A stretch of DNA of 42,189 bases from a virus: positions 1 to 42,189 of the IMG/VR virus record IMGVR_UViG_3300042372_000664. The stretch is one strand, 5' to 3'. The position numbers and the translations under genes were made by a program. This document shows, piece after piece, positions 208-42,062 of this stretch (position 1 is the first letter of the stretch; every line of letters begins with the position of its first letter). A model generated the notes under the pieces. The model made no database searches. It had not been told where the DNA came from and saw only the letters and a list, made by a program, of their open reading frames with translations.

Positions 208-504
208 CGCGATCAACGCTCTGAAACCCGCAGAAATCCGTCGATAGGATGCCAACGCCGGTCGCGGCCAATGCCCGCGCAGCCGTATCGCAAAATCCGC
301 CGTCGACCCGCCCGCCGACGCGCAACGCGCCCCGATCCGCAAATTTTTCTGGAGCCAGACGCCCGACGCCCCCCCGCGACACGTGTGCACAGAGCGAACC
401 GGAATATCCGGCCCCTATTTTATTCATCCGCGCAGAATTGATCGAAGTCATGGGCCGCGTTGCTATCACGCAATTCATCTATTTGGCAATAACCCATCTA
501 TGCC

Positions 505-707
505 GTTCTGAATGTTCTATCTATAGAACAGCCGAAGTATATGTAATAAAACGTAAATCAGGCGCTTGTTCTACGTTCTATGTCTCGCGCGCGCATAAGG
601 CGCGTGTGCACATACCGCGCATGGAGGCCTTGACCGGTAGAACAGAACGCCAGAACATTTGCACAACATATTGATATTGCTCACTTATGCTAAAACAACG
701 TCAGAAC
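505..707. promoter_or_regulatory. Cluster of AGAAC/GTTCT motifs (iteron or operator array)
   Basis: Nine copies of AGAAC or its complement occur in about 200 bp: GTTCT at 505, 514, 568 and 575, and AGAAC near 525, 639, 644, 652 and 703. Two of them form a perfect 7-2-7 palindrome at 514-529 (GTTCTAT-CT-ATAGAAC). Less than one copy is expected by chance. This density is typical of a replication initiator or regulator binding array. Which protein binds is unknown. Confidence 0.6.
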
Positions 708-932
708 ATCCGGAACACCCCTGACCCACGAGGCACAGCCAAAATCGGCCCCAATCTTTGATTGTAATCTTTGGGTCGGGGATCGGGTAAACCGATGCAT
801 AAGCACCCGCGCGACCACAAATAGCAGCTTGTCTCAACGGGTCGGGGCGAAGAATGAGGATCCGATGCGCACCGCGCGCCGTTGGCGCGCTGCATCGGCG
901 AGAATGGCGGAAATCTGCGATAATTATTCCTA

Positions 933-2953: not shown

Positions 2954-3155
2954 CCTTGACTTGCTCCAATGCCTGTTCAACCGGCGTTCCCATCCGGCAC
3001 AGCCACAGAGCATCGGGATAGTGCATCAACGCGACAAGAGGCGCGGCGCAAGTCGCCACGGGTTGGGGATGGATAGGATAGCCGAACAGGTCGCCACCAA
3101 AGGCAAGCGGTGCAGGGCTGGCTTGTTCTCTATTCATTGTCGCCACATGCCACAT
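2925..3155 (-). CDS. Unknown protein, 76 aa, in a direct-repeat-flanked cassette
   Basis: Starts MWHVATMNREQ (ATG at 3155; an internal ATG at 3137 is possible). It ends in RDQSARLL, exactly as the unrelated methyltransferase upstream does, because both stop codons lie in copies of the same 27-bp repeat. The middle is neutral (FGYPIHPQPVATCAAPLVALMHYPDALWL) with no recognised domain. The whole gene sits between two imperfect 69-bp direct repeats offset by 250 bp. Confidence 0.55.
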   Translation of the reverse strand: MWHVATMNREQASPAPLAFGGDLFGYPIHPQPVATCAAPLVALMHYPDALWLCRMGTPVEQALEQVKARDQSARLL

Positions 3156-3203
3156 GATCGTTTTAAGGTAAACATCAAAGCAACCGCGCCGATTGGTCCC
3201 TTG
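3135..3203. repeat. Gene-junction direct repeat, copy 2
   Basis: Partner of 2885-2953. Together they bracket the 76-aa gene, which looks like a tandem duplication or an inserted cassette that brought its own junction. Confidence 0.9.
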
Positions 3204-4870: not shown

Positions 4871-5151
4871 TGTTTATCTGGTGGGGTGATCGGAACCCAA
4901 TGGCCATTTGAAAGCTTCTTGCCTTTTGCCGGCAGCGACTTCCATTCTAGATACCGCCGCGCTTCCCATAATGAGATGATTACGCTTTCAAGGCTGTCAG
5001 CCATGTGATCCGGCTCATATCCGGCATCTCGCAGTAGTTTTCCTATGCCGTCCTTCGAGCGCATGGCATCAACAATTAAGTGGGCATGGCGAGAAGCCGG
5101 GCAAGTTTTGACACCCTTGTCGCGCATTTTATCCAGAGTCCGCTTACCCAT
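4858..5151 (-). CDS. Unknown protein, 97 aa
   Basis: MGKRTLDKMRDKGVKTCPASRHAHLIVD... is mostly helical and basic at its N-terminus. The ATG at 5151 overlaps the upstream stop as TGATG and is preceded by AGGAGAAT, inside a junction sequence shared with two other genes. It ends QGDK, in the next copy of that junction. Confidence 0.65.
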   Translation of the reverse strand: MGKRTLDKMRDKGVKTCPASRHAHLIVDAMRSKDGIGKLLRDAGYEPDHMADSLESVIISLWEARRYLEWKSLPAKGKKLSNGHWVPITPPDKQGDK

Positions 5152-5164
5152 CACTTATTCTCCT
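5147..5164. repeat. Repeated start-junction sequence
   Basis: An 18-bp sequence identical to 5905-5922, reading AGGAGAATAAGTGATGGG on the minus strand. It carries the ribosome binding site, the last two codons and stop of the upstream gene, and the ATG of the next. It is analogous in layout to the start-associated sequences known in some mycobacteriophages. Confidence 0.85.
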
Positions 5165-5909
5165 GTTGTGCGTTGGGGCGCGCAAAATATGTTTTCCCGT
5201 CAAGATCGTGCCCACCCTTGTCAGACTTGCGACCGCCAACCTGTTTGAAATTGAAAATCCGCCCAAGTCGCTGGCAGTCGGCTTTTAACGACCGCGCCCA
5301 ATCCAAGTCCATTGGCCTTGCGTTCGGGCCGCTCTCGCCACCGACTATGATCCAGTCCGGCGCTTCATAGTCCAACTCCACTTCACCGAGCAGTGGTTCA
5401 AAGCTGCCAAAGGTAAACAAGGGGTCAAGCGCTTCTCGCGCCATCGCCAGTTTAATGGCATCCCGATCATATTCAGCTTGGGTTGCCATCGTCGCGCCGA
5501 GCGCTGCGTTTTCGGGCCATCGGCTTCCATGGCCTACCATCTTTACAACATTACCAATGCGCTTTGTCAGCAATAGCCATACAAGGTTCGGGGTAGCGCG
5601 TATCAGGTCAAACAAATCAGAGCGCCAGTGCGGGTCAACCTCATTGTCAAACACATCGGCCAGCGACGCGCAAAAGACAAATGGGCGCGTTCCTTGCTTG
5701 GCGGCGGCTCGGTCCCATTGGATCGGTTTGCGCCAGTTGGCGTCTGACGTGCGCGAACGTGGTTCTCCCGCGCCCCATTTGACGCGATGGTAGCGCGTGT
5801 CCATCATGTCGGCGGCGTAGCAGTTGTCGCAAGCCGGACTAACGCGGGTGCATCCGATCCACGGATTAAAAGTGTGGTCGCACCACTCTATTTTTGTAAA
5901 TTCGCCCAT
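5151..5909 (-). CDS. DUF5131 / phage Gp37-Gp68 family protein (radical-SAM-like)
   Basis: A 252-aa protein opening MGEFTKIEWCDHTFNPWIGC, the hallmark of the phage Gp37/Gp68 (DUF5131) family. The cysteines C20-x6-C27-x2-C30 (CTRVSPACDNCY) are the conserved cluster, probably binding an iron-sulfur centre as in radical SAM enzymes. Further family motifs are WLLLTKR near the middle and WIIVGGESGPNARPM in the C-terminal third. The biochemical role is not established. It lies among early genes next to replication functions, so nucleotide or nucleic-acid modification is an inference. Start and stop are both in repeated junctions. Confidence 0.85.
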   Translation of the reverse strand: MGEFTKIEWCDHTFNPWIGCTRVSPACDNCYAADMMDTRYHRVKWGAGEPRSRTSDANWRKPIQWDRAAAKQGTRPFVFCASLADVFDNEVDPHWRSDLFDLIRATPNLVWLLLTKRIGNVVKMVGHGSRWPENAALGATMATQAEYDRDAIKLAMAREALDPLFTFGSFEPLLGEVELDYEAPDWIIVGGESGPNARPMDLDWARSLKADCQRLGRIFNFKQVGGRKSDKGGHDLDGKTYFARPNAQQENK

Positions 5910-5922
5910 CACTTATTCTCCT
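5905..5922. repeat. Repeated start-junction sequence
   Basis: Exact 18-bp partner of 5147-5164, at the start of the DUF5131 gene. The upstream reading frame ends EENK here, as the DUF5131 protein ends QENK at the next copy. Confidence 0.85.
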
Positions 5923-6116: not shown

Positions 6117-6442
6117 GTCGATTTCTTCCACTGTGCGGCGCGGGTTTCCATCGAACTGGGAATATCCTTGCCGCTACATATTATCCGGCGGCGCGGTGGG
6201 TGGGTGATCGTGGCTGGCTCTGCGGGTGGCGGCGGACGATTGGCGGCATATCGCCGGTCGCCAAGCGGTGCGGGCTTTTTCGGGGTCCGGGCTATTTTTA
6301 TGCGCCGCTTAAACGTAACGCGCACGACATATGCGGGCTTTGCCACAAGGGCGCGGCTGCGCGCCCGAAACGCCGCGCCGGGCGTCCCGTCATGCGCAAT
6401 GCCCACAAAGAAAATGCCGCGCGGCGCCTTTGCCCCAGCCAT
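6113..6442 (-). CDS. Unknown basic protein, 109 aa
   Basis: Start ATG at 6442 overlaps the helicase-like gene stop (TGATG). MAGAKAPRGIFFVGIAHDG... has a beta-like N-terminus, then a very basic, Pro-rich middle (VTFKRRIKIARTPKKPAPLGDRR). It may bind nucleic acid. Coupled to the replication genes; no family recognised. Confidence 0.55.
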   Translation of the reverse strand: MAGAKAPRGIFFVGIAHDGTPGAAFRARSRALVAKPAYVVRVTFKRRIKIARTPKKPAPLGDRRYAANRPPPPAEPATITHPPRRRIICSGKDIPSSMETRAAQWKKST

Positions 6443-8388
6443 CACTCTTTTTCTTTCAAAGCCATCAAGGGTATGGCAATTGCGTTGTCGGCGTTCGGGC
6501 CGGAAAAGCGCATTTTCAGACCTTTCTCGACGCCCTCGATCTTACCCATTGATTGCAGCCAGCCACCGCCGCGCCATTCATTGCTGTTCTTGAAAAGTTC
6601 GACTAACGGCACGCATGTTGCGTGGGCAACTGCAAGATAGGCGTTCTTCCAGTCATTGATGATTGGCTCACCGGCAAGCCGAACCTTGCCGTCCTTATCC
6701 TTGTCCAACAGGACAAGCCGAAGCCCAACCGTTTTCAGCCTTGACCGTGCGACTTCGTTAATCGGGTTTGATATGGCTTCATCGCCATTGTCGCTCGTGC
6801 GCGGCTCCATTGCGCGCACAATCCATTGCCCGATTGTTTCGGCTGCATGGCCGTTCGATCCCGGCAATGTTAGCGACAAAAGATAGGCGATGACGCGCTC
6901 GTTATCCGGTCTGGACTCGACCTTGCCGCGCACCATCAATGGCAAGACCATGCGCACCCATGTTTTTTCCGTTATGTCCGTTTCATCCGCCGGAACGCGA
7001 TGCGCGGGCGCTTCATCGAACAACAACATGTCGGCACAGGCAAGCAAGGTGCCATAGGTGTCTTGCCACCGCCCTTCATAGCCGTGACTGTGGATTTCGC
7101 GCTTATATGTCGCCAGCGTGGCTTCAAAACGCGGCCATTGTTCCAACATACGGCGGTGCATCTTGCGCCCCACCATCCGCCATAATGGCAATAACGGCCC
7201 AACCTCAAACGGATCGATGGCCGCTGGCACTTGGCGCATGTCCAATATCGCAAAACGGTTGCGATCTTCGCCCAACATGGGCGTATGCAGAACGGAGGAA
7301 AACAGAAACGCCGACTGTGCAGTAAATTCCTGCCCCTTATGGTCTGCGCCACCGCGCAATATCTTGCCGCCCGATGATGATTTCTTGGCAAGGTTCATCA
7401 TCGCGCGTTGCCGTTCGGGGTTGTCCGCCGCCTCGGCTTCGTCGATCATGACGGCCAACGTGTCATTGTTCAACAATTGCCGAATGGCCGCTTCGCTGGC
7501 ATCCTCGGCACGTAATACCCAATCGTCATGAATTGCGCGGATGATGCGCTGCAATGATGATTTTCCCGACGCCGTTGGTCCGGCCAGCCATACGTGCGGC
7601 CGCCAATTCAGCGCGCCGCAAATAAACATCTGCCCGACCATGCCAAGCAACAGATATTCAGCGGGTCCGGGCTTTCCATCGCGTCCGCCGTCGACAAAAT
7701 ACCATTTGGCGAACAGCTTTAACAATTGCTCGGCCTCGTCACGGGTTGATGCCTCGGCGGCGGGCGGTGGCAAGGCATCGTCGGCGGGATAATATTTGCC
7801 GCCTATGGCACCGGCGCGCTCAACGCGGACGTCGATCCTGTCTTTTGCGACCTTGCCCGAACCGCGCCGCCAATCGCCCGCCGATGATATCAAAACCTTG
7901 TTGCCCATGTGCAGCAACAATTGTTGATCGTCGTCGCGGCCCCGATGTGCGCCGCGCCCGAATATCTTGCCTTCGGGCTTGAATATGCCTTTGACGCGGC
8001 ACGCGCCGATAATCGCCATCTGCGCGTCGTTCTGGTTAAACCCGTCTGTGTAAAATTGCGGGTCTGTGTTGCCCTTGCCGGTGCCGGGCACCAGCTTTTG
8101 TTGGGGGAAAACCTCGGTCAACCATTCCTCACCGCATAACAGCGCCAACAATCCCTTGCCCAATTCCTGCGGTTTTACCGTCGCAATCTGTTTGCTTTCA
8201 TCAAGCAGGATAATTGAGACACCATTTTTGCCGAGAGGCGTTATTGGCGCGTCAAGCGGCAGATAGACATGCTTTTGCCCTTCCTCGCGTTCTTCGCGAG
8301 ACTTCGGCTTGCGCTTGCGCATATCGGGCGCGGGCTGCGGCGTAGCAGCAGCGGCGGCAACGGCGTCGAGGTTGGACTCGGACGTCAT
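6442..8388 (-). CDS. Replicative P-loop ATPase/helicase (D5/DUF927-like)
   Basis: A 648-aa protein with a Walker A motif GPTASGKSS at residues 270-278 and a Walker B motif (LAVMIDEAE) at 311-319. A sensor-like region with FLFSSVLHTPM and an arginine-rich RNRFAIL follows. The layout (long N-terminal domain, central AAA+/SF3-like ATPase, C-terminal ~150 residues) resembles D5/DUF927 helicases of phages and integrative elements. It lies three small genes downstream of a primase, so the two probably act as the phage primase-helicase pair at the origin. The N-terminus (residues 1-40) is low complexity and charged. The start overlaps the previous stop (ATGA). Confidence 0.75.
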   Translation of the reverse strand: MTSESNLDAVAAAAATPQPAPDMRKRKPKSREEREEGQKHVYLPLDAPITPLGKNGVSIILLDESKQIATVKPQELGKGLLALLCGEEWLTEVFPQQKLVPGTGKGNTDPQFYTDGFNQNDAQMAIIGACRVKGIFKPEGKIFGRGAHRGRDDDQQLLLHMGNKVLISSAGDWRRGSGKVAKDRIDVRVERAGAIGGKYYPADDALPPPAAEASTRDEAEQLLKLFAKWYFVDGGRDGKPGPAEYLLLGMVGQMFICGALNWRPHVWLAGPTASGKSSLQRIIRAIHDDWVLRAEDASEAAIRQLLNNDTLAVMIDEAEAADNPERQRAMMNLAKKSSSGGKILRGGADHKGQEFTAQSAFLFSSVLHTPMLGEDRNRFAILDMRQVPAAIDPFEVGPLLPLWRMVGRKMHRRMLEQWPRFEATLATYKREIHSHGYEGRWQDTYGTLLACADMLLFDEAPAHRVPADETDITEKTWVRMVLPLMVRGKVESRPDNERVIAYLLSLTLPGSNGHAAETIGQWIVRAMEPRTSDNGDEAISNPINEVARSRLKTVGLRLVLLDKDKDGKVRLAGEPIINDWKNAYLAVAHATCVPLVELFKNSNEWRGGGWLQSMGKIEGVEKGLKMRFSGPNADNAIAIPLMALKEKE

Positions 8389-8875: not shown

Positions 8876-9192
8876 TGCTTGGTTGCACCATCAAGCGACG
8901 CGGGATGCGAAGCGCACATCATCCACCAAAGATCGAGAAGCTCATGCAATCCTTGGCGGCTTTGCTCCGTTGGGGCATTGCCGTTCACTCCGAATACGAG
9001 CTGCGTCAACGCCATTCCCATGCCGTTCAACAAATCTTCTTCAATGTGACCGCGTAAAATTAGGCCATTCAACCGCTGCAGGACATATTGTGTTGCTGCC
9101 AGCCTTTCGGCATCGCATTGTGCGTCGCGCTCTCCGGTGCCAAATGCACTCCAATCGCTTGGCGGCGCTGCCATTGGATATTTTTTGCTCAC
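8872..9192 (-). CDS. Unknown protein, 106 aa
   Basis: A GTG start overlaps the primase stop (GTGA). The sequence is helical (AERLAATQYVLQRLNGLILRGHIEEDLLNGMGMALTQLVF), ending in a Trp-rich segment (LLDLWWMM). It could be a primase/helicase accessory by position, but no family is recognised. Confidence 0.65.
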   Translation of the reverse strand: MSKKYPMAAPPSDWSAFGTGERDAQCDAERLAATQYVLQRLNGLILRGHIEEDLLNGMGMALTQLVFGVNGNAPTEQSRQGLHELLDLWWMMCASHPASLDGATKQ

Positions 9193-10304
9193 ACTATCGG
9201 TCCCTTTGATTGGAAAGCTTCGCTTTCGGGCATCTTCACACCGCGCAACACGTCGTTAAAATCCTTATATCCGGGCGGTGGCCATAGGATGCTGACACCG
9301 CGCACTTCGCCGTCTGCCGTCATTTGTTGTTCGGCTTGCTCTTGTTGCAATGCGATGCACGCTTCCAATGCGGCAACCGCATCGCGCGGCTTGTCGGGCT
9401 GGCGCTTGTCCCATTGCCCGACGATCACCAGGTCGCCCGCTTGGGGAGGCAATATCAACGAGCCAATTTTATCCAGCGTGCCCGCTGCCAATACCCGCCG
9501 CGTTGGATCGACCATTGCGATGGTGAGCGCATCCTCAATCCCCTCGCTGACATAGACGGGCGTGCCCGCGTCGATATCGCGCAGCGTCTTGGTGCAACTG
9601 CCTTTGTGGATCGGCATGGCCGCGCCTTTGAACCCACCTAAAATCGTCTTTGGCTTATCAAGATTGGCTTTCACCCAACCTTTGCCCGTATGCTCCAAAA
9701 ACGTGCGGTGCGTGGCGATATGCTTGCCATCGATGCCGATTATTGCGGTGACGACGGCGGGGATATTGCGCCGTAATTCGGCGTTCCAAGTATCATGCCG
9801 ATATCGGATTGCGCCCGGCAACTTACCTAATTTGCTAAAATCAATGTGGCGACCCTCAAAATATTTCTGCGCGGGCGTGTCCTTCATCGGCGCGGCAAAT
9901 TGCCACAATCCGCGCGCCGACTCCTGCTTTTGCTTGGCCGCTTCTTCCTCGCTGCGCTGGCGTTCAATGCGGCGCTGCTCGACCTCGGCGCGGTTGGCCG
10001 GCGTATCAAACGAAATCCCTGCATCGGCCTCAAGCATCCGCAGCGCATCCATAAACGTCATGCTTTTGCGCTCAATCAAATATTTGATCACATCGCCGTT
10101 CCAGCCACAGCCAAAACATTGCGCAAATTGCTTTGCGTCATTGATCATGAAACTGCCGGTGCGCTCCCCGTGGAACGGGCAACATGCTTCTTGTTCGCTG
10201 CCCTTCTTGGTCAGCTTCACATCGATGCCAACAATAGACGACATCGGCACTCGGTCCTTGACCGCCCGTGCGCGCGCCTGAATGTCTGTGGTCCCCACCT
10301 TCAT
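9189..10304 (-). CDS. DNA primase, CHC2 zinc finger and TOPRIM
   Basis: 371 aa. The N-terminal CHC2 zinc finger is visible as CCPFH (C42, H45) and CFGC (C63, C66). A charged helical linker follows (residues ~107-130), then a TOPRIM-type domain with the catalytic glutamate in VYVSEGIEDALT (E254) and an acidic LVIVGQWDKRQPDK segment near 292-305. Length and order fit short phage primases that lack a DnaB-interaction or helicase domain. The partner ATPase is at 6442-8388. The start at 10304 has AGG nine bases upstream. Confidence 0.85.
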   Translation of the reverse strand: MKVGTTDIQARARAVKDRVPMSSIVGIDVKLTKKGSEQEACCPFHGERTGSFMINDAKQFAQCFGCGWNGDVIKYLIERKSMTFMDALRMLEADAGISFDTPANRAEVEQRRIERQRSEEEAAKQKQESARGLWQFAAPMKDTPAQKYFEGRHIDFSKLGKLPGAIRYRHDTWNAELRRNIPAVVTAIIGIDGKHIATHRTFLEHTGKGWVKANLDKPKTILGGFKGAAMPIHKGSCTKTLRDIDAGTPVYVSEGIEDALTIAMVDPTRRVLAAGTLDKIGSLILPPQAGDLVIVGQWDKRQPDKPRDAVAALEACIALQQEQAEQQMTADGEVRGVSILWPPPGYKDFNDVLRGVKMPESEAFQSKGPIV

Positions 10305-10313
10305 AATGCCGAC

Positions 10314-10682
10314 CTATGCTGTCGTTACAGCATGGCGGACATCCACGGCGAACGGCGCTTCGCCATGAATGCCCGCGTCATTGGCCCGGCGTTCAAGGGT
10401 GGGAGGAGAGTCGCCGGACCCATGATTGGTTGCAGGGGTCGGACTCGAACCGACGACCTCTTGGGTATGAACCAAGCAAGCTACCGCTGCTCCACCCTGC
10501 AATCTGTGAAATATCTCCGCGATCGACTTGACCTTATGCCGCTCGGTCCCGAGTTTGCTGCCGTCAGGGCCATAAAGTTCGAGAGAAGCGCCAAGCACCT
10601 GCGCGCGCCGCTTACGCGTTTCCCATTCCTTGATCGATGCGGCGCGGCTATCACGCACGGTGAGACCAATCCTTATCTGCAA
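10314..10682 (-). CDS. Unknown ORF that reads through a tRNA gene
   Basis: An ORF of up to 122 codons (TTG start at 10682, or a GTG at 10661 giving 115 aa). The first ~58 residues (RAASIKEWETRKRRAQVLGASLELYGPDGSKLG) look like a normal basic phage protein. From about residue 59 the frame runs straight through the tRNA and reads the typical tRNA-translated string EVVGSSPTPATN. No stop occurs between the coding part and the tRNA. Either the tRNA was acquired inside or at the end of this gene, or the true protein is made from a processed message. It overlaps the upstream gene by 32 bp. Confidence 0.45.
   Translation of the reverse strand: MQIRIGLTVRDSRAASIKEWETRKRRAQVLGASLELYGPDGSKLGTERHKVKSIAEIFHRLQGGAAVACLVHTQEVVGSSPTPATNHGSGDSPPTLERRANDAGIHGEAPFAVDVRHAVTTA
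10316..10333. other. Hairpin between tRNA and primase
   Basis: ATGCTGT-CGTT-ACAGCAT forms a perfect 7-bp stem just upstream of the primase start. There is no T run, so it is not a clear terminator. It may be an RNA processing site between tRNA and primase on the leftward transcript. Confidence 0.45.
10427..10501 (-). tRNA. tRNA with CAU anticodon (Met-type)
   Basis: The complementary strand folds into a full cloverleaf: acceptor TGCAGGG/CCCTGCA, D arm GAGC/GCTT with loop AGCGGTA, anticodon arm CTTGG-TTCATAC-CCAAG, T arm GTCGG-TTCGAGT-CCGAC, discriminator A and an encoded CCA. The anticodon is CAU. The anticodon stem lacks the three G:C pairs typical of initiators, so elongator Met (or lysidine-modified Ile) is more likely. 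It lies within the leftward early operon, so it is probably cut from the polycistronic RNA. Confidence 0.9.
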
Positions 10683-10914
10683 TTGGCGTGATTACGCCAC
10701 CATCTGTGATAAGCGTATCGGGGTCACTGTTCCATGATGGCTGAAATTGCGCCGCTTCACGCGCCCGTTCCGGCACCCGCCGCGCTGCGGCCAATTCCTT
10801 TTCCAACTGTTCACACAGCGCAGGCGGCAGGCCAATGCGGAAATCACCGATGAACAACTGCACCTCGCCCTTATTCTCGTTCCACACGATCTGGATATCG
10901 ATATCGGCTTTCAT
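10651..10914 (-). CDS. Unknown protein, 87 aa
   Basis: MKADIDIQIVWNENKGEVQLFIGDFRIGLPPALCEQLEKELAAARR: a beta-hairpin-like start then a charged helix. It overlaps the regulator stop (ATGA). No family recognised. Confidence 0.65.
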   Translation of the reverse strand: MKADIDIQIVWNENKGEVQLFIGDFRIGLPPALCEQLEKELAAARRVPERAREAAQFQPSWNSDPDTLITDGGVITPIADKDWSHRA

Positions 10915-11264
10915 GCTGCCCTCTCCATCTGGCTATGTTCCTGCCCGACATTCGGGCAATTCGCTTCCGAACAACTGCGCACCACGGGGTCGTCGGTGCG
11001 CAGGTCGCATAAGGTGCACAGCAACGGGCGTTCATATATGACCGCTGCTTCAAACCAGTCGGCGTGCGCCGCGATGCCCATGTCGGCGATGCGGTTCATC
11101 GTCCGCGCATTCGGCACTTTGCCGAACCGCTCCCATTGCTGCACCGCGCTGGCGGTGACAAAACCGATTCGGTCGGCCAATGCCTCACGCGTCAACCGGG
11201 CGTCCCGCTGATCGCGATACGCCTCAATCTTTTGTCCGGCTTTTGTGGTTGATGCTGTCTTCAC
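10911..11264 (-). CDS. XRE/Cro-like HTH regulator with C-terminal Cys cluster
   Basis: 117 aa from a GTG start at 11264. Residues ~24-65 (LTREALADRIGFVTASAVQQWERFGKVPNARTMNRIADM) form an XRE-type helix-turn-helix. The C-terminal part has CTLC and then CSEANC about 15 residues on, a likely zinc-binding or dimerisation knob. It is the first gene of the leftward early operon and is divergent from the 11340 regulator. It is therefore the Cro/CII-position regulator by analogy with lambdoid phages. A palindromic operator lies 11 bp upstream of its start. Confidence 0.75.
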   Translation of the reverse strand: MKTASTTKAGQKIEAYRDQRDARLTREALADRIGFVTASAVQQWERFGKVPNARTMNRIADMGIAAHADWFEAAVIYERPLLCTLCDLRTDDPVVRSCSEANCPNVGQEHSQMERAA

Positions 11265-11292: not shown

Positions 11293-11328
11293 TTGTGCAA
11301 GCGATAATTTCAACTTTTATTCAGAATA
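11293..11328 (+). promoter_or_regulatory. Repressor promoter with overlapping TATTC-A-GAATA
   Basis: TTGTGC (11293) and TTTATT (11316) are spaced by 17 bases. The palindrome TATTCAGAATA (11318-11328) overlaps the -10 and runs up to the AGGAT ribosome binding site of the 11340 gene, so autoregulation is likely. The half-sites match the 11275 operator but have a shorter spacer. Confidence 0.55.
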
Positions 11329-11339
11329 GGATTTTTACC

Positions 11340-11741
11340 ATGACAGCAATAGTGATAAATTTAGCCTCTATGGCACGTAAAAGCAAAACACTCGACAATG
11401 CTCCCAATCGCATCCGCGAATGGCGGCAGCTCCGCAGCTTGACCTTAAAGGAACTGGCGAAGCGCGTCGGCGTCACCATCGGGCACATGCAAAAATGGGA
11501 AATTGCGGATCGCAATATCTCTTATGAACGGTTTAAGCGCATTGCCAGTGCGTTAGATGTAAATGTGGCGGACTTGCTGACCGCAGAAGACAATCCCGAC
11601 GCGCTGTCCGATGCCGAACGCAAGGTTGTCGCCGCCATGCGGCAAAATGACGCCTTTGCACATAGCGCCACAGTTTTGGCCGAGGCGCAGCAGACGTTCA
11701 AACAAGCGCCTGAAATTCTGCCTTTTCCGAAAGTCGCCTAA
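11340..11741 (+). CDS. XRE-family repressor candidate
   Basis: 133 aa. The ATG at 11340 is preferred over the upstream 11295 because AGGAT sits eight bases before it and the promoter overlaps the longer form. Residues ~24-78 hold an XRE helix-turn-helix (LTLKELAKRVGVTIGHMQKWEIADRNISYERFKRIASALDV). The C-terminal tail is short and has no S24 protease, so cleavage by RecA-type induction is not evident. Its divergent position next to 11264 suggests the lysogeny repressor. Confidence 0.75.
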   Translation: MTAIVINLASMARKSKTLDNAPNRIREWRQLRSLTLKELAKRVGVTIGHMQKWEIADRNISYERFKRIASALDVNVADLLTAEDNPDALSDAERKVVAAMRQNDAFAHSATVLAEAQQTFKQAPEILPFPKVA

Positions 11742-13746: not shown

Positions 13747-13932
13747 ATGCCCGTTCTACCCATTTACCCAGAATTTCCGATCATCCGCGCTTATATCTCG
13801 CGCCTTGGCGGTCATGATGCACTGGCCCGACGCCACAATATTGACAAACGTACCGCCCAACGCATTTTAAGCGGCAAGATGGTGCCCGGCAAAAGCTTGC
13901 TGGCTGAATTACTGGAATCGGCCCGTGCCTAA
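13747..13932 (+). CDS. Small HTH protein, excisionase/regulator candidate, 61 aa
   Basis: AAAGGAGT precedes the ATG. Residues ~16-50 (AYISRLGGHDALARRHNIDKRTAQRILSGKMVPGKSLLAELL) look like a compact helix-turn-helix of the Cro or YdaS type. It overlaps the integrase start by eight bases, the position often held by a recombination directionality factor or a repressor of int. Confidence 0.6.
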   Translation: MPVLPIYPEFPIIRAYISRLGGHDALARRHNIDKRTAQRILSGKMVPGKSLLAELLESARA

Positions 13933-15196
13933 GCTACGCCGCACCCCTCGCTATTTTCAGCCTGTCCCGCGCGCCAAAGGCCGCGTCACCTACAAATGGG
14001 AACCATCGGCCACATTGCGCCGCATGGGCTGGGCAACCGTCATGCTGGGTGACAATTACGTCGCCGCCATTGCCAAGGCAGAGGCGCTGAATGCCGAACT
14101 CGACGCATGGCGCGTGGGTGCATCTGGCCATGAAGCCGAAGCAAAGCCGATTGCCCCTGCCAACCGATTCCACGCCCGCTGGTCCGACCTTGACCGCGCC
14201 TATCGCGCCGATGAAAAAAACGGCTTGCTGGCGCGCAAACCCAAAACGCAAAAGGAATATGACAGCCGGTTGAAATGGCTCTCCAAATGGGCGGAAAATG
14301 GCAACACGCGGCTATCCGATATCACCCGCGAAGTGGCCGAGGATTTGCGCGACAGCCTTGTCGACCATAGCAGCGCCTATAAGGCAGCGGCGATCATGCG
14401 CGTATTTTCACTGCTAATGGGCTATGCCGAAAAAAAGGCGAAGATGCTCCGTCGTGGATCTGACCCGTCAAAAGAGCTCGTCGTCCCTACACCGCCGCGC
14501 CGTAGGAAAAGCGTCGCGTTAGAAATCGTCGAATTTTTGGCCGCGACCGCGCGCAATCATGATTTGGAACGCGTGGCATTGGCCCTTGAACTAGGATTTT
14601 ATACGTTGCAACGGCCCGGTGACCTGCGCACCGCGACCGCGATGCACTGGCGCCGCATGAATGATCTGGATGCCAGCGACCGCGCGGCCCTGTGCGGCCC
14701 TGACGGCCTTGTCTATGGCCTCCGCTTTCAACAGGCAAAGACAGGCGCATGGATCGGCAACGCCGTGCACCATGACTTACGGCTAAAGGTCGAGGCGCGG
14801 CTTGCCGCAATGCACAATGCCGACGCCGCTTATATTTTGTTCCACGATGGCGCAGGCCAGGGAGCGGGCAAATTATGGCACGAACGCGAATTTAACCGCG
14901 ACTTCCGCAATGTCGTCAATTTCGCGATCGAGGCCGCGCGCGCATCCGGCGACAACTGGCTGACTGACGAATTGACTGGCTTGCAATTCCGCGACATTCG
15001 CCGCTCCGGCATGGGCTGGCACAAAGACATGGGCGCAAGCAAAGAACAAATCGCATCGCGCAGCGGCCATAATATCAGCGAGGTCGAAGATATTTTGAAA
15101 ACCTACATGCCCGCCAACGAACGCGGCAGCGCCGCCGCCTTCGCCCGCGCGATCATCGCCAGCCAAGACCGCAAGCAAGAAAGGAACGAAGCGTGA
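13925..15196 (+). CDS. int: Tyrosine-type site-specific integrase
   Basis: 423 aa from a GTG start that overlaps the HTH gene. An N-terminal arm-binding region and a core-binding domain (residues ~85-190) precede the catalytic domain. The catalytic residues visible are R230 (QRPGD), K272 (FQQAKTG), R359 (FRDIRR), H382 (SGHN) and Y394 (LKTY). The usual histidine of the HxxR box is an arginine (RDIR), as in a known subgroup of phage integrases. It would integrate the phage at attB. The candidate attP is 1 kb downstream (16203-16407). Confidence 0.9.
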   Translation: MPKLRRTPRYFQPVPRAKGRVTYKWEPSATLRRMGWATVMLGDNYVAAIAKAEALNAELDAWRVGASGHEAEAKPIAPANRFHARWSDLDRAYRADEKNGLLARKPKTQKEYDSRLKWLSKWAENGNTRLSDITREVAEDLRDSLVDHSSAYKAAAIMRVFSLLMGYAEKKAKMLRRGSDPSKELVVPTPPRRRKSVALEIVEFLAATARNHDLERVALALELGFYTLQRPGDLRTATAMHWRRMNDLDASDRAALCGPDGLVYGLRFQQAKTGAWIGNAVHHDLRLKVEARLAAMHNADAAYILFHDGAGQGAGKLWHEREFNRDFRNVVNFAIEAARASGDNWLTDELTGLQFRDIRRSGMGWHKDMGASKEQIASRSGHNISEVEDILKTYMPANERGSAAAFARAIIASQDRKQERNEA

Positions 15197-39367: not shown

Positions 39368-39601
39368 TTAGGTTCCAAGCTGGCGTTTGCCAGTGGACGA
39401 TTCAGCGCCCATTGCGCCCAAAATCGCGTTCGACGCCGCTCCGCGCCTCCGCGAAAGCCTGTCGCGCGCAAAAACATCCTCCGCGCCCGTATCTCTTGTT
39501 TGCTGGATTTGCGGCGCTGGCGCTTCTTTCTTTTTTTTTCCGGCCAACAAGCCTGCAACGCCAAAAAGTCCTTTGGTCAAAAGAGGTTTCAACAATGCCA
39601 T
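39368..39601 (-). CDS. Small conserved phage protein, 77 aa
   Basis: Short hydrophobic start, basic tract (GKKKKEAPAPQIQQ), then DRLSRRRGAASNAILGAMGAESS-TGKRQLG. The RRRGxxxxILG...GKxxLG pattern is common to a small protein next to terminase in many tailed phages. Function unknown. Overlaps the terminase stop. Confidence 0.7.
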   Translation of the reverse strand: MALLKPLLTKGLFGVAGLLAGKKKKEAPAPQIQQTRDTGAEDVFARDRLSRRRGAASNAILGAMGAESSTGKRQLGT

Positions 39602-41160
39602 TATCTCACTCCCGCAGCTGCATATCCGGTGAATTTTGTGCGCCGATGGCTATGGCGGCGTTGGTCGCGATCCTGCCGCTGCCCCTCGATCGCAGAGCCG
39701 CGCATTTTATAGCCCAAAACGCCATGCTCTATCGCGTTGGCGACATGCGAAAATGGCCCTTTGTCGGGCTTTGCGCTTAACGATAGCCCGGTCGAAGTCT
39801 TACGCTGGACAAGAATATATCCACCCGAAAGCGCGCGGCGCAACACAGGGCAATCACTGCCAACAAGCACACCGGGTTGCCCGCCGGGCGACGAGTTAAA
39901 CCAATGGCGCATAGCCTCCAGACGCGGTTCAACCCTGTTTGCCGCATCCCCGCCCGCTTTATATTTGCACGGAAATTCAGCCTTCAAAACGCGCAGCCAT
40001 TCGTAGGAATCTTCTTCCTGCCCAAAATCAATTGACGGGTCATAGAATACGCATTTGACCTCTCGATCACCGAAATGGTCGAGAACATGCTCGCGCATCA
40101 ATTCGCCGAAATGCGCTGGGCCAAGCCGGTCAAGATAGATGTTTTCGCCGGAGCTTGTTTTTTTCGGGTCGTAAATCACGACCTCGCTCAATAGCCTCAG
40201 ATAGCCCGGCACCTGAAAAAACACCGCCGCAGGGGTTCGCCCCCCGTCTATTCCTACATAAATCGGATAATCCGAAAGCGGCGCAAGACGCTGGCCGGCA
40301 TAATGCAGACCGGGATTATATTCGGGATATACCGGCTGACCATCGACCGTCGTGCCAAATTCATTATCGACCATGCGGCGCAGCATGTTTGGCTTTTTCG
40401 ATAGCGCCATGACTTGCTGCAAATAATATCCGGGCGGCAAGTTGGCTAGATTTTCAGGCGGCGGATCGACGGAACGGCCACCCGGCTGCCGATAGAAACC
40501 TACCCCGAACAATGGTCCTAATTGCGCCCGCAATTCCGCTTCTAATTCCGCATCAAGCCCAAGATTGTTATCGACAAATAAATCATACACCCAATTGTCG
40601 ATATCGGGCGCGTTAAAATCCATGATGATGCCCGACCACGCGCAACCACCCAGCTTTGCATCGGGATAGCGGCCAATACGGGTCATACCGAAATAATATA
40701 CGCTCGGGTCGACGGTATCGGCTTCGTTAATCCAGATCAGCGTCAATTCAAGACCGCGCAAAACCTCCTCTGCGCTGCGTTCATTTAACGCGATGAAGTG
40801 CATTTCAATGTAAATGCGGATTGTCTCACCTGTCTGTGGATTAAGCCAGTTCAGATTAAGCTCGTGGACAAGATTTTTGCCGTTCCACTTGCCAATATCC
40901 TTCGGAAACCAGCCAAACCAGCTTTTGAGGACGTTGCGTTCCAACTGCGGATATGTGTTGCGGATAGCCGCCCCGCGCACGCGCCGAACGCCGTCAGGCC
41001 CCGGATTTTGCTTCAAAGCGGCGGTAATGATTTTGCGGATGCAGCTTGTGGTTTTTGCCGAACCGACCGGCCCCATTATGCCTGTGATTTTGCGCCAATC
41101 ATTGACGAAAGCCTCTGCAATCGGCCCCACAGGTGCCATCATGGCCGCAATACCGCTCAT
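39601..41160 (-). CDS. terL: Terminase large subunit
   Basis: 519 aa. ATPase domain: Walker A GPVGSAKTTS (residues 30-39) and Walker B LIWINEAD (141-148). Nuclease domain: acidic residues in GIDGGRTP (D305) and YDPSID (D374, D378), plus the PFSHVANAIEHG block with H472. This motor translocates DNA into the prohead and cuts it. Upstream gene overlaps with ATGA. Confidence 0.9.
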   Translation of the reverse strand: MSGIAAMMAPVGPIAEAFVNDWRKITGIMGPVGSAKTTSCIRKIITAALKQNPGPDGVRRVRGAAIRNTYPQLERNVLKSWFGWFPKDIGKWNGKNLVHELNLNWLNPQTGETIRIYIEMHFIALNERSAEEVLRGLELTLIWINEADTVDPSVYYFGMTRIGRYPDAKLGGCAWSGIIMDFNAPDIDNWVYDLFVDNNLGLDAELEAELRAQLGPLFGVGFYRQPGGRSVDPPPENLANLPPGYYLQQVMALSKKPNMLRRMVDNEFGTTVDGQPVYPEYNPGLHYAGQRLAPLSDYPIYVGIDGGRTPAAVFFQVPGYLRLLSEVVIYDPKKTSSGENIYLDRLGPAHFGELMREHVLDHFGDREVKCVFYDPSIDFGQEEDSYEWLRVLKAEFPCKYKAGGDAANRVEPRLEAMRHWFNSSPGGQPGVLVGSDCPVLRRALSGGYILVQRKTSTGLSLSAKPDKGPFSHVANAIEHGVLGYKMRGSAIEGQRQDRDQRRHSHRRTKFTGYAAAGVR

Positions 41161-41774
41161 GCGTCATCGCCATCATCATCGGGCAAGCGATATTCGCCAT
41201 CGACAATTCGGAAATCCAACACTTGCCCCGAATCAATGGTGCCCGCCTGCACCGCGTCACCGATCCGCTTCATGACTTCACCGACCGGGCCTATATCGCC
41301 CTGCCCCGGCGCGACAAAACCGACAATCGTGCCATCGACGCGATGATCGACCGCGACTTCGGTTGGTTTCTTACTGTGAACATAATCTGCCACTGCTTTT
41401 GCTGCCTGTAATTGCAGCGATAATGCCTTAACCGCGAGATCACCGGGCGGGGCCTTACCACTTCCCGGTGCTGCCAGCTTGATAAGTTCGACCGCTTGAT
41501 CGAGTGGCATCGAATAAATGCTAGCCATAAACAGAACCGGATCACCCGACTGCTGGCAAATCAGTTTTGCCAAAACCTGATTGCGCTTGTTTTCCGACCC
41601 AGGCGGGCGTCCTGCCTTTTTTTGCCGCGCGAGCTGAAACACATTTTTCGGAAGACTGCCGCGATCATCCCGCAGCAAATCCAGTTGATCAGCTTCCATC
41701 GGCGCGCCCAAAATCGCGCTGCCATCCGCCACTTCACGGAACGCGTTTTCAAGGGCCGAAGTCTTAGTTGACAT
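41157..41774 (-). CDS. Terminase small subunit candidate
   Basis: 205 aa, ATG at 41774 (MSTKTSALENAF; no strong Shine-Dalgarno). A KKAGRPPGSENKRNQVLAKLICQQSGDPVLFMASIYSMPLDQAVELI segment, a basic hook then helices, is the usual small-terminase signature. The C-terminal half is Pro/Asp-rich. First gene of the late operon, directly before terL. Confidence 0.7.
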   Translation of the reverse strand: MSTKTSALENAFREVADGSAILGAPMEADQLDLLRDDRGSLPKNVFQLARQKKAGRPPGSENKRNQVLAKLICQQSGDPVLFMASIYSMPLDQAVELIKLAAPGSGKAPPGDLAVKALSLQLQAAKAVADYVHSKKPTEVAVDHRVDGTIVGFVAPGQGDIGPVGEVMKRIGDAVQAGTIDSGQVLDFRIVDGEYRLPDDDGDDA

Positions 41775-42062
41775 GACACGCAACCGGGCATAGCTTCCCG
41801 ATTCCGTTCAACCCAAAGCGACCGGAAAGCATCGCTTGCACCCCTACCCGAGCCTTCAAAATTTGGCTTTTGCCTATTGGGCGGCGCGCTAAGCGTCTGT
41901 TCAAAACGCTTTCGCGCACCGCCCGCACCCCCGACCCCATTCGGCCTCGATAGATTTTGCGCACCCTGACGAGGAAATCCTCAAGCCAGCAAAGCGTGGT
42001 GCACGATATCGAGGGCAATTCCGGCCCGAGGTGATCCTTTTTCAAAAACTGCCAGCGCGGCT
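41775..42062. other. Gene-poor stretch upstream of the terminase genes
   Basis: No supported gene. A plus-strand frame (ending near 42080) reads a plausible but startless 45-codon tail, possibly a remnant. The sequence should contain the late promoter, and possibly the packaging recognition site beside the small terminase gene, but neither can be pinpointed. Confidence 0.4.

Follow-up and report, generated by a model that had tools for sequence, protein, structure and literature searches.

The window, by which we mean the whole stretch of 42,189 nucleotides analysed here (IMG/VR record IMGVR_UViG_3300042372_000664), has a 127-bp repeat shared between its two ends, and the genome is therefore taken to be circular, at about 42,062 bp. 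It encodes an integrase, HTH regulators, a DnaG-type primase and a 648-aa P-loop ATPase, and the phage is thus probably tailed and temperate. A Pfam scan detected the connector family Head-tail_con, and the terminase large subunit (TerL) is 34% identical to that of Burkholderia phage BcepC6B; a podophage like BcepC6B is likely. BcepC6B itself carries seven copies of CTACCC in both orientations just upstream of its integrase gene (L108:25220), perhaps attP arm sites. Other features of the window include a minus-strand tRNA-Met (CAT) at 10427-10501, lying between the genes for the primase and the HTH regulators, a DUF5131 protein encoded at 5151-5912 among the leftward early genes, and a 70-bp stretch duplicated at 2885-2953 and 3135-3203 (80% identical), where alignments with relatives also break and which is possibly a recombination site.

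A dense array of the pentamer AGAAC, read on both strands (Table 1), separates the rightward early genes from the leftward operon of terminase and structural genes; the earlier note had proposed this array as a possible replication origin in a gene-free region. No gene could be recognised there by comparison, as none of the ORFs covering most of the array was matched in relatives; two minus-strand ORFs (685-942 and 701-895) overlap its last bases only, with matches mainly in the near-identical contig G005. The closest conserved gene on the leftward side encodes a 208-aa protein in the position of a small terminase subunit (TerS), assigned by position only. No match was found when the first 2.6 kb were compared with cultured phages using blastn, nor for the TerS-position protein among cultured phages, and a scan of genome contigs returned a single match, in a Bacteroidales contig without a dense array.

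Table 1. Features of the array region and of the genes discussed in the text (window coordinates).
Feature	Position	Strand	Remarks
Mirrored pentamer array, candidate origin	505..716	both	word counts; positions kept in five relatives
Exact AGAAC sites	525, 639, 644, 652, 703	+	
Exact AGAAC sites	505, 514, 568, 575	-	
One-mismatch array sites	548 (AAAAC), 712 (GGAAC)		
Interrupted palindrome TGTTCTAT-CT-ATAGAACA	513..530		inside outer left site group
AT-rich spacer between outer and inner left groups	530..567		63% AT; candidate melting region
Dyad centre	580..638		36% AT; alternating purine-pyrimidine runs 586-597, 600-615
AT-rich spacer, other side	657..702		67% AT; candidate melting region
Conserved box, reverse complement GAATAAAATAGGGGCCGGATATTC	402..425		~80 bp outside array, terminase side
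648-aa P-loop ATPase	6442..8388	-	SF3/MCM-like self-loading initiator helicase fold (predicted); proposed initiator
DnaG-type primase	9189..10304	-	CHC2 zinc finger; Toprim match below Pfam cut-off
HTH regulators	10911-11264, 11295-11741		
Integrase	13925-15196		
Terminase large subunit (TerL)	39601..41160	-	
208-aa protein in small-terminase position	41157..41783	-	GRPxGSxNKR motif; TerS by position only

Over both strands, the 42,189 bases contain 34 copies of AGAAC (shuffle mean 40.8), nine of them within 505-707, as had been reported. Positions 500-715 hold these nine against 0.17 expected (Poisson 3e-13, uncorrected for the choice of word). The earlier note had regarded an equal density elsewhere in the genome as evidence against an origin; a scan across the genome found nine copies of AGAAC in one 203-bp stretch only, that of the array. 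Among the 5-mers listed, only CGCGC, GCCGC and GCGCA also attain nine copies or more within some 203-bp stretch, and each of these is present in 345-502 copies in the window. The array is also symmetrical, with nine of its ten GAAC cores having a mirror partner about position 609.5. The perfect 16-bp palindrome described previously does have perfect 8-bp arms, but these are not continuous, being separated by 2 bp (8-2-8); the same interrupted palindrome is present in a distant relative (L026/G010). Analysis of GC skew, which had been suggested as a check on the origin, was uninformative, the skew being negative almost throughout, beneath genes of either strand.

Five close relatives carry the same array. 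In an alignment of these with the window, 2 of 55 motif columns are variable compared to 64 of 157 other columns (p 2e-8); the motif positions are nearly frozen while the intervening bases drift, and the array is thus a conserved cis element. The one-mismatch sites of the window at 548 and 712 correspond to exact AGAAC in relatives, which thereby have a tenth copy and, in three of the five, an eleventh; we therefore extend the array to 716. The mirrored layout is retained in the distant contigs L042 and L026, which were found by pattern; most of the 62 stretches that matched a second array pattern look like chance occurrences, L042 being the useful new one.

A box lying outside the array on the terminase side is also conserved. 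On the reverse strand it reads GAATAAAATAGGGG-CC-GGATATTC, and it is almost unchanged even in phages whose array word is GTAAC; L042 and L026 keep it some 80-100 bp outside their arrays. Searching with the box pattern identified ten further contigs. In nine of these a helicase relative or a TerS-position gene occurs in the same stretch; in the tenth, L112, the box is present by sequence, but the stretch has no match to helicase, TerS or TerL. The box falls inside the open TerS reading frame in L107 and L113, and may be a packaging or late-control site. The interval between the box and the TerS-position gene (41784-42062 and 1-401) is long, apparently non-coding and kept in many relatives; by eye it contains a G5-6/C5-6-T3 hairpin, and it looks like a leader with a terminator. 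The word GGGTCGGGG occurs at 41929 in this interval, and on the other strand at 773 and 839.

The earlier note recognised no initiator gene, and named three early proteins that could take part in replication from the array. The ComM-like protein encoded at 1546-2226 does not fit. It corresponds to the C-terminal portion of ComM/Mg-chelatase alone (Mg_chelatase_C, with a short YifB match). It was found solely in two contigs of the same phage (100% identity) and in L009 and L010 (98%), and was not found in the array-bearing contigs G006, G007, G008, G010 and G011, although the contigs searched are incomplete (G007 is 39.8 kb). A Pfam scan of 21 window ORFs revealed no GapR homologue. The third, the 648-aa ATPase, received no family name from Pfam or NCBIfam, and its sequence profile had no match in the PDB; Pfam DUF927 weakly matched one of 23 family members, and not the window protein. 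An AlphaFold2 model was built from 23 relatives (mean pLDDT 83.8, pTM 0.73). Its leading Foldseek match in the PDB was the helicase domain of phage NrS-1 polymerase, with SaPI5 PriRep1, poxvirus E5/D5 and ASFV PrimPol also among the best, the 50 matches listed having E values of 7.5e-9 to 1.4e-6 with TM-scores of 0.2-0.5 and large rmsd. In VIA-align, SCCmec Cch (5dgk) was the best of the matches listed (Z 16.9, 430 residues over 40-648, rmsd 6.5), while MCM helicases scored Z of about 14-15.5 over roughly 144-491 and the SaPI5 primase-helicase 14.7-14.8. A shared fold by itself shows no function.

A profile of the ATPase, hereafter the helicase, identified at least 548 relatives among viral contigs. 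The best 80 of these were combined with 12 loci found earlier, and the resulting 92 loci, which include repeat fetches of the same contigs, were scanned for clusters with the word left free. Clusters were scored in 84 loci, two of which (L139, L147) were judged false, and eight loci had no scored array. The word varies by phage, the commonest being AGAAC, GGAAC and GTAAC, with GCAAC, GAAAC, GGGAC, CTAAC, CTTAC, GCTAC and others also represented. A mirrored cluster at log10 p <= -9 was found in 73 of 89 TerS-bearing loci, compared to three of the 89 when the 1.5 kb upstream of TerS were masked and none after shuffling. The distance between helicase gene and array is 5.7 kb in the window and up to 7.4 kb at other loci, and is 100-400 bp in many relatives. 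In L177 the order is array-TerS-helicase-TerL.

Layout was summarised for 55 non-redundant loci, obtained by thinning 71 loci with at least eight sites and full helicase, TerS and TerL to less than 85% helicase identity; this set holds array-bearing loci only, and its threshold of eight sites inflates the mean site number. Arrays most often contain 12 sites (20 of 55 loci), and 6|6 is the most frequent division of sites about the best dyad (15 loci). The mean fraction of sites that are mirror-paired is 0.69, compared to 0.54 in randomised arrays, and just six arrays are fully mirrored. Averaged over 67 arrays, the centre is GC-rich and is flanked on either side by a hump of higher AT content.

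It is not possible to decide from position which protein reads the word, since the TerS-position gene is the nearest conserved gene and the survey itself started from the helicase. We compared how well the nearest relative of each protein predicts the word in the 55 loci. Using whole alignments, the helicase predicted the word in 39 of 55 cases, TerL in 28 and TerS in 22 (McNemar p 0.001 for helicase versus TerL and 8e-5 versus TerS; 20% with shuffled labels), and on the window columns alone the helicase scored 0.73. As the helicase is a better predictor than the terminase subunits, the word travels with the replication module despite the nearer packaging gene. The helicase was not clearly better than the primase, however (36 versus 33 of 51, p 0.51), so the word may simply travel with that module as a whole. 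Within the helicase, column 635 is T or N in 15 of 16 AGAAC loci and mostly R, K or W elsewhere, which is a hint only that this column separates the classes of word. Residue H148, also considered in this respect, proved to be mainly a clade marker.

Cultured phages allow the two gene families to be separated. We compared 11 helicase-family phages with other terminases to seven TerL-family phages without a match to the helicase profile; 12 of the 18 records were partly covered (L199-L202, L204-L211) and six whole (L108, L109, L196, L197, L198, L203), and the TerL of MT835618 starts at the record edge. The TerS profile matched none of the 11 helicase-family phages, and none of the 18 control records overall; the TerL profile matched S-H1 alone among the 11, weakly. 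At a uniform threshold of log10 p <= -11, arrays were found in five of the 11 helicase-family phages, one of the seven TerL-family phages and one of 42 other viral stretches, the latter being array-pattern matches from whose count four AGAAC-like words were excluded. In Bdellovibrio phage phi1422, where the TerL profile had no match, an array of 12 sites, every one mirrored (6|6), begins some 10 bp past the end of the primase-helicase gene. Strong arrays lie at the end of the helicase gene in MinM1, just upstream of it in Acjo_20, and 1.7 and 4.6 kb after it in MQ-4 and ZRG1, respectively. Those of S-H1, KLER1-1 and PY223 are weaker and below the uniform threshold, and no convincing array was found for Mwe-JY13, PHB04 or Dolphis in the part of the record covered. 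The one TerL-family phage above threshold, VA-RY-3 (partly covered), and also Ss1 have clusters 1.3-1.6 kb upstream of the TerS-position gene, with the helicase profile unmatched. Both clusters are intergenic (AGGATA x9 at L199:3794, record position 6793, and ATCCCC x7 at L198:42046) and are perhaps origins of another replication system. A further viral contig has ATGTA x14 on both strands (L044:5327), possibly another origin of the pentamer-array kind.

These comparisons bear most directly on the proposal that the array is a packaging site (pac or cos), in which the pentamers would be bound by the small terminase and the DNA cut at the centre or at the nearby box; cosB and the hexamer-flanked pac of P1 provide models for such an arrangement. 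Of the 82 loci with both a cluster and a detected TerS-position gene, 80 (all but L139 and L122) have the array no more than 1.5 kb upstream of that gene, TerS being assigned by position only. The variable distance falls on the helicase side, the array remains with TerS in L177, and the conserved box lies between the two. The same proximity counts against an origin, as the array adjoins TerS in nearly every scored relative while other genes can separate it from the helicase. However, the strong arrays of the five cultured helicase-family phages occur without a match to the TerS profile, and the TerL profile matched none of the array-bearing phages among the 11 save S-H1, weakly, so that arrays do not keep company with one terminase family. 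TerS and TerL are also the worst predictors of the word, and in G005 the array is 95% like that of the window although TerS and TerL are just 36-39% identical to the window's. Arrays with other terminases, together with the word-prediction test, displaced packaging as the leading explanation, and we now consider it unlikely.

Still less likely, in our view, is an operator array, in which a phage regulator bound to the pentamers would control diverging early (rightward) and late (leftward) promoters. The array does lie between diverging gene blocks, a promoter-like site is present at 933-962 (two such sites compared to 1.3 in shuffles) and the phage encodes HTH regulators. However, some 10 kb separates the regulator genes from the array, AGAAC is absent from the span between 8,440 and 13,752 that holds both of them, the arrays of phi1422 and MinM1 lie directly at the helicase gene, and a dyad of six plus six sites would be superfluous for an operator. 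That the pentamers are attP arm sites or a centromere (parS) array, where clusters of short sites in both orientations do occur, is highly improbable despite the encoded integrase, which lies 13 kb away and has relatives only 31-35% identical in the contigs compared, as no Par pair was recognised among the 21 window ORFs scanned and arrays are found in phi1422 and KLER1-1, records without an annotated integrase.

The explanation best supported by these comparisons is that proposed initially, a replication origin. We consider it probable that the array is the origin of the phage and that the pentamers are iterons for its own SF3/MCM-like helicase, acting as two hexamers. Among the proteins named in the earlier note, the ATPase fits the part of initiator: its family accompanies arrays in phages with other terminases, it predicts the word better than the terminase does, and its model suggests a fold like that of self-loading initiator helicases. 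Under the mechanism we propose, the pentamer copies would serve as iterons for the 648-aa helicase, and the two opposed sets of sites, ideally six and six about the dyad, would accommodate two hexamers arranged head to head. Melting would then occur in the AT-rich spacers that divide the outer from the inner groups, so that the helicases could load themselves onto the separated strands and travel away from each other. Synthesis would be primed by the DnaG-type primase, which we propose as the partner of the helicase.

Several known origins combine initiators with short repeated sites. The P4 alpha protein (on ori-crr), SV40 T antigen and papillomavirus E1 are SF3 initiator helicases acting on short repeated words, and the pentamers of the SV40 origin stand in inverted pairs, but these origins differ from the array in the number and layout of their sites. 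The origins of lambda O and plasmid Rep also consist of iterons, although there the initiator is not a helicase and the direct repeats that form the iterons are longer. Both E1 and T antigen are mentioned in PMC7581432.

Closer parallels are found in the phage satellites known as PICIs, including SaPIs, and in SCCmec. Such helicases are described as having short-iteron origins beside their own genes (PMC7581432, PMC6092414): the C-terminal domain of SaPI Rep helicases recognises a short-iteron origin directly downstream of the gene, apparently as two hexamers, Cch is related to SaPIbov1 Rep (DUF927), and the C-terminal domain of Cch2 binds the 5-nt iterons of a putative origin, a 5-nt iteron being needed (PMC7581432). 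PICIs are arranged as pri, rep and then ori, sometimes followed by a terS homologue (PMC6092414). PLE RepA belongs to another family (PMC7145576). With the rep-ori systems of PICIs and SaPIs (SaPIbov1 Rep, SaPI5 PriRep1, EcCICFT073) the array shares two opposed sets of short iterons. The proposed initiator is predicted to have a fold related to that of their self-loading helicases, and many of the phages studied here also have the array beside the helicase gene. Their published centres are AT-rich, however, whereas in the window the AT-rich parts flank the centre (in phi1422 the region between the two site sets is AT-rich by eye); the window's proposed initiator gene is 5.7 kb away rather than immediately 5' of the candidate origin; and the carriers are complete phages rather than satellites. 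Cch gives the best match over nearly the whole ATPase model, though with about 10% sequence identity in the structural alignment, and the three iterons reported for Cch2 compare with usually 8-13, with a dyad, in the phage arrays. The array thus most likely works like a PICI or SCCmec origin, but we do not class it as a member of the PICI type because the window has neither the AT-rich centre nor the adjacent initiator gene.

To our knowledge, the origins of most temperate phages are unknown, being hard to recognise by sequence. Among the matches listed in a literature search (titles and the beginnings of abstracts, with few subscription journals), such arrays were not described in these phages, and neither 'iteron' nor 'origin of replication' occurs in the available part of PMC3391216, which covers phi1422. 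More tentatively, and as a prospect that falls a little short of probable, we suggest that these arrays represent a widespread class of origin in phages that infect several bacterial phyla, comprising twelve pentamers in a dyad as a platform for loading two hexamers, six pentamers per hexamer, with a phage-private word read by an SF3/MCM-like helicase. If so, the pentamer changes fast between phages while the layout is kept, and the satellite origins of PICIs and SCCmec would fall within a larger, phage-borne family. A simple rule, of about twelve mirrored pentamers, commonly upstream of terS, in a phage with a recognisable helicase, provides candidate origins in dozens of phages, and opens to testing both the way in which an initiator helicase recognises a five-base word and the means by which the word can change without loss of replication. 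Should the arrays prove to be origins, the view of such systems would widen to include self-sufficient phages, with a bearing on the source of the replication modules carried by satellites.
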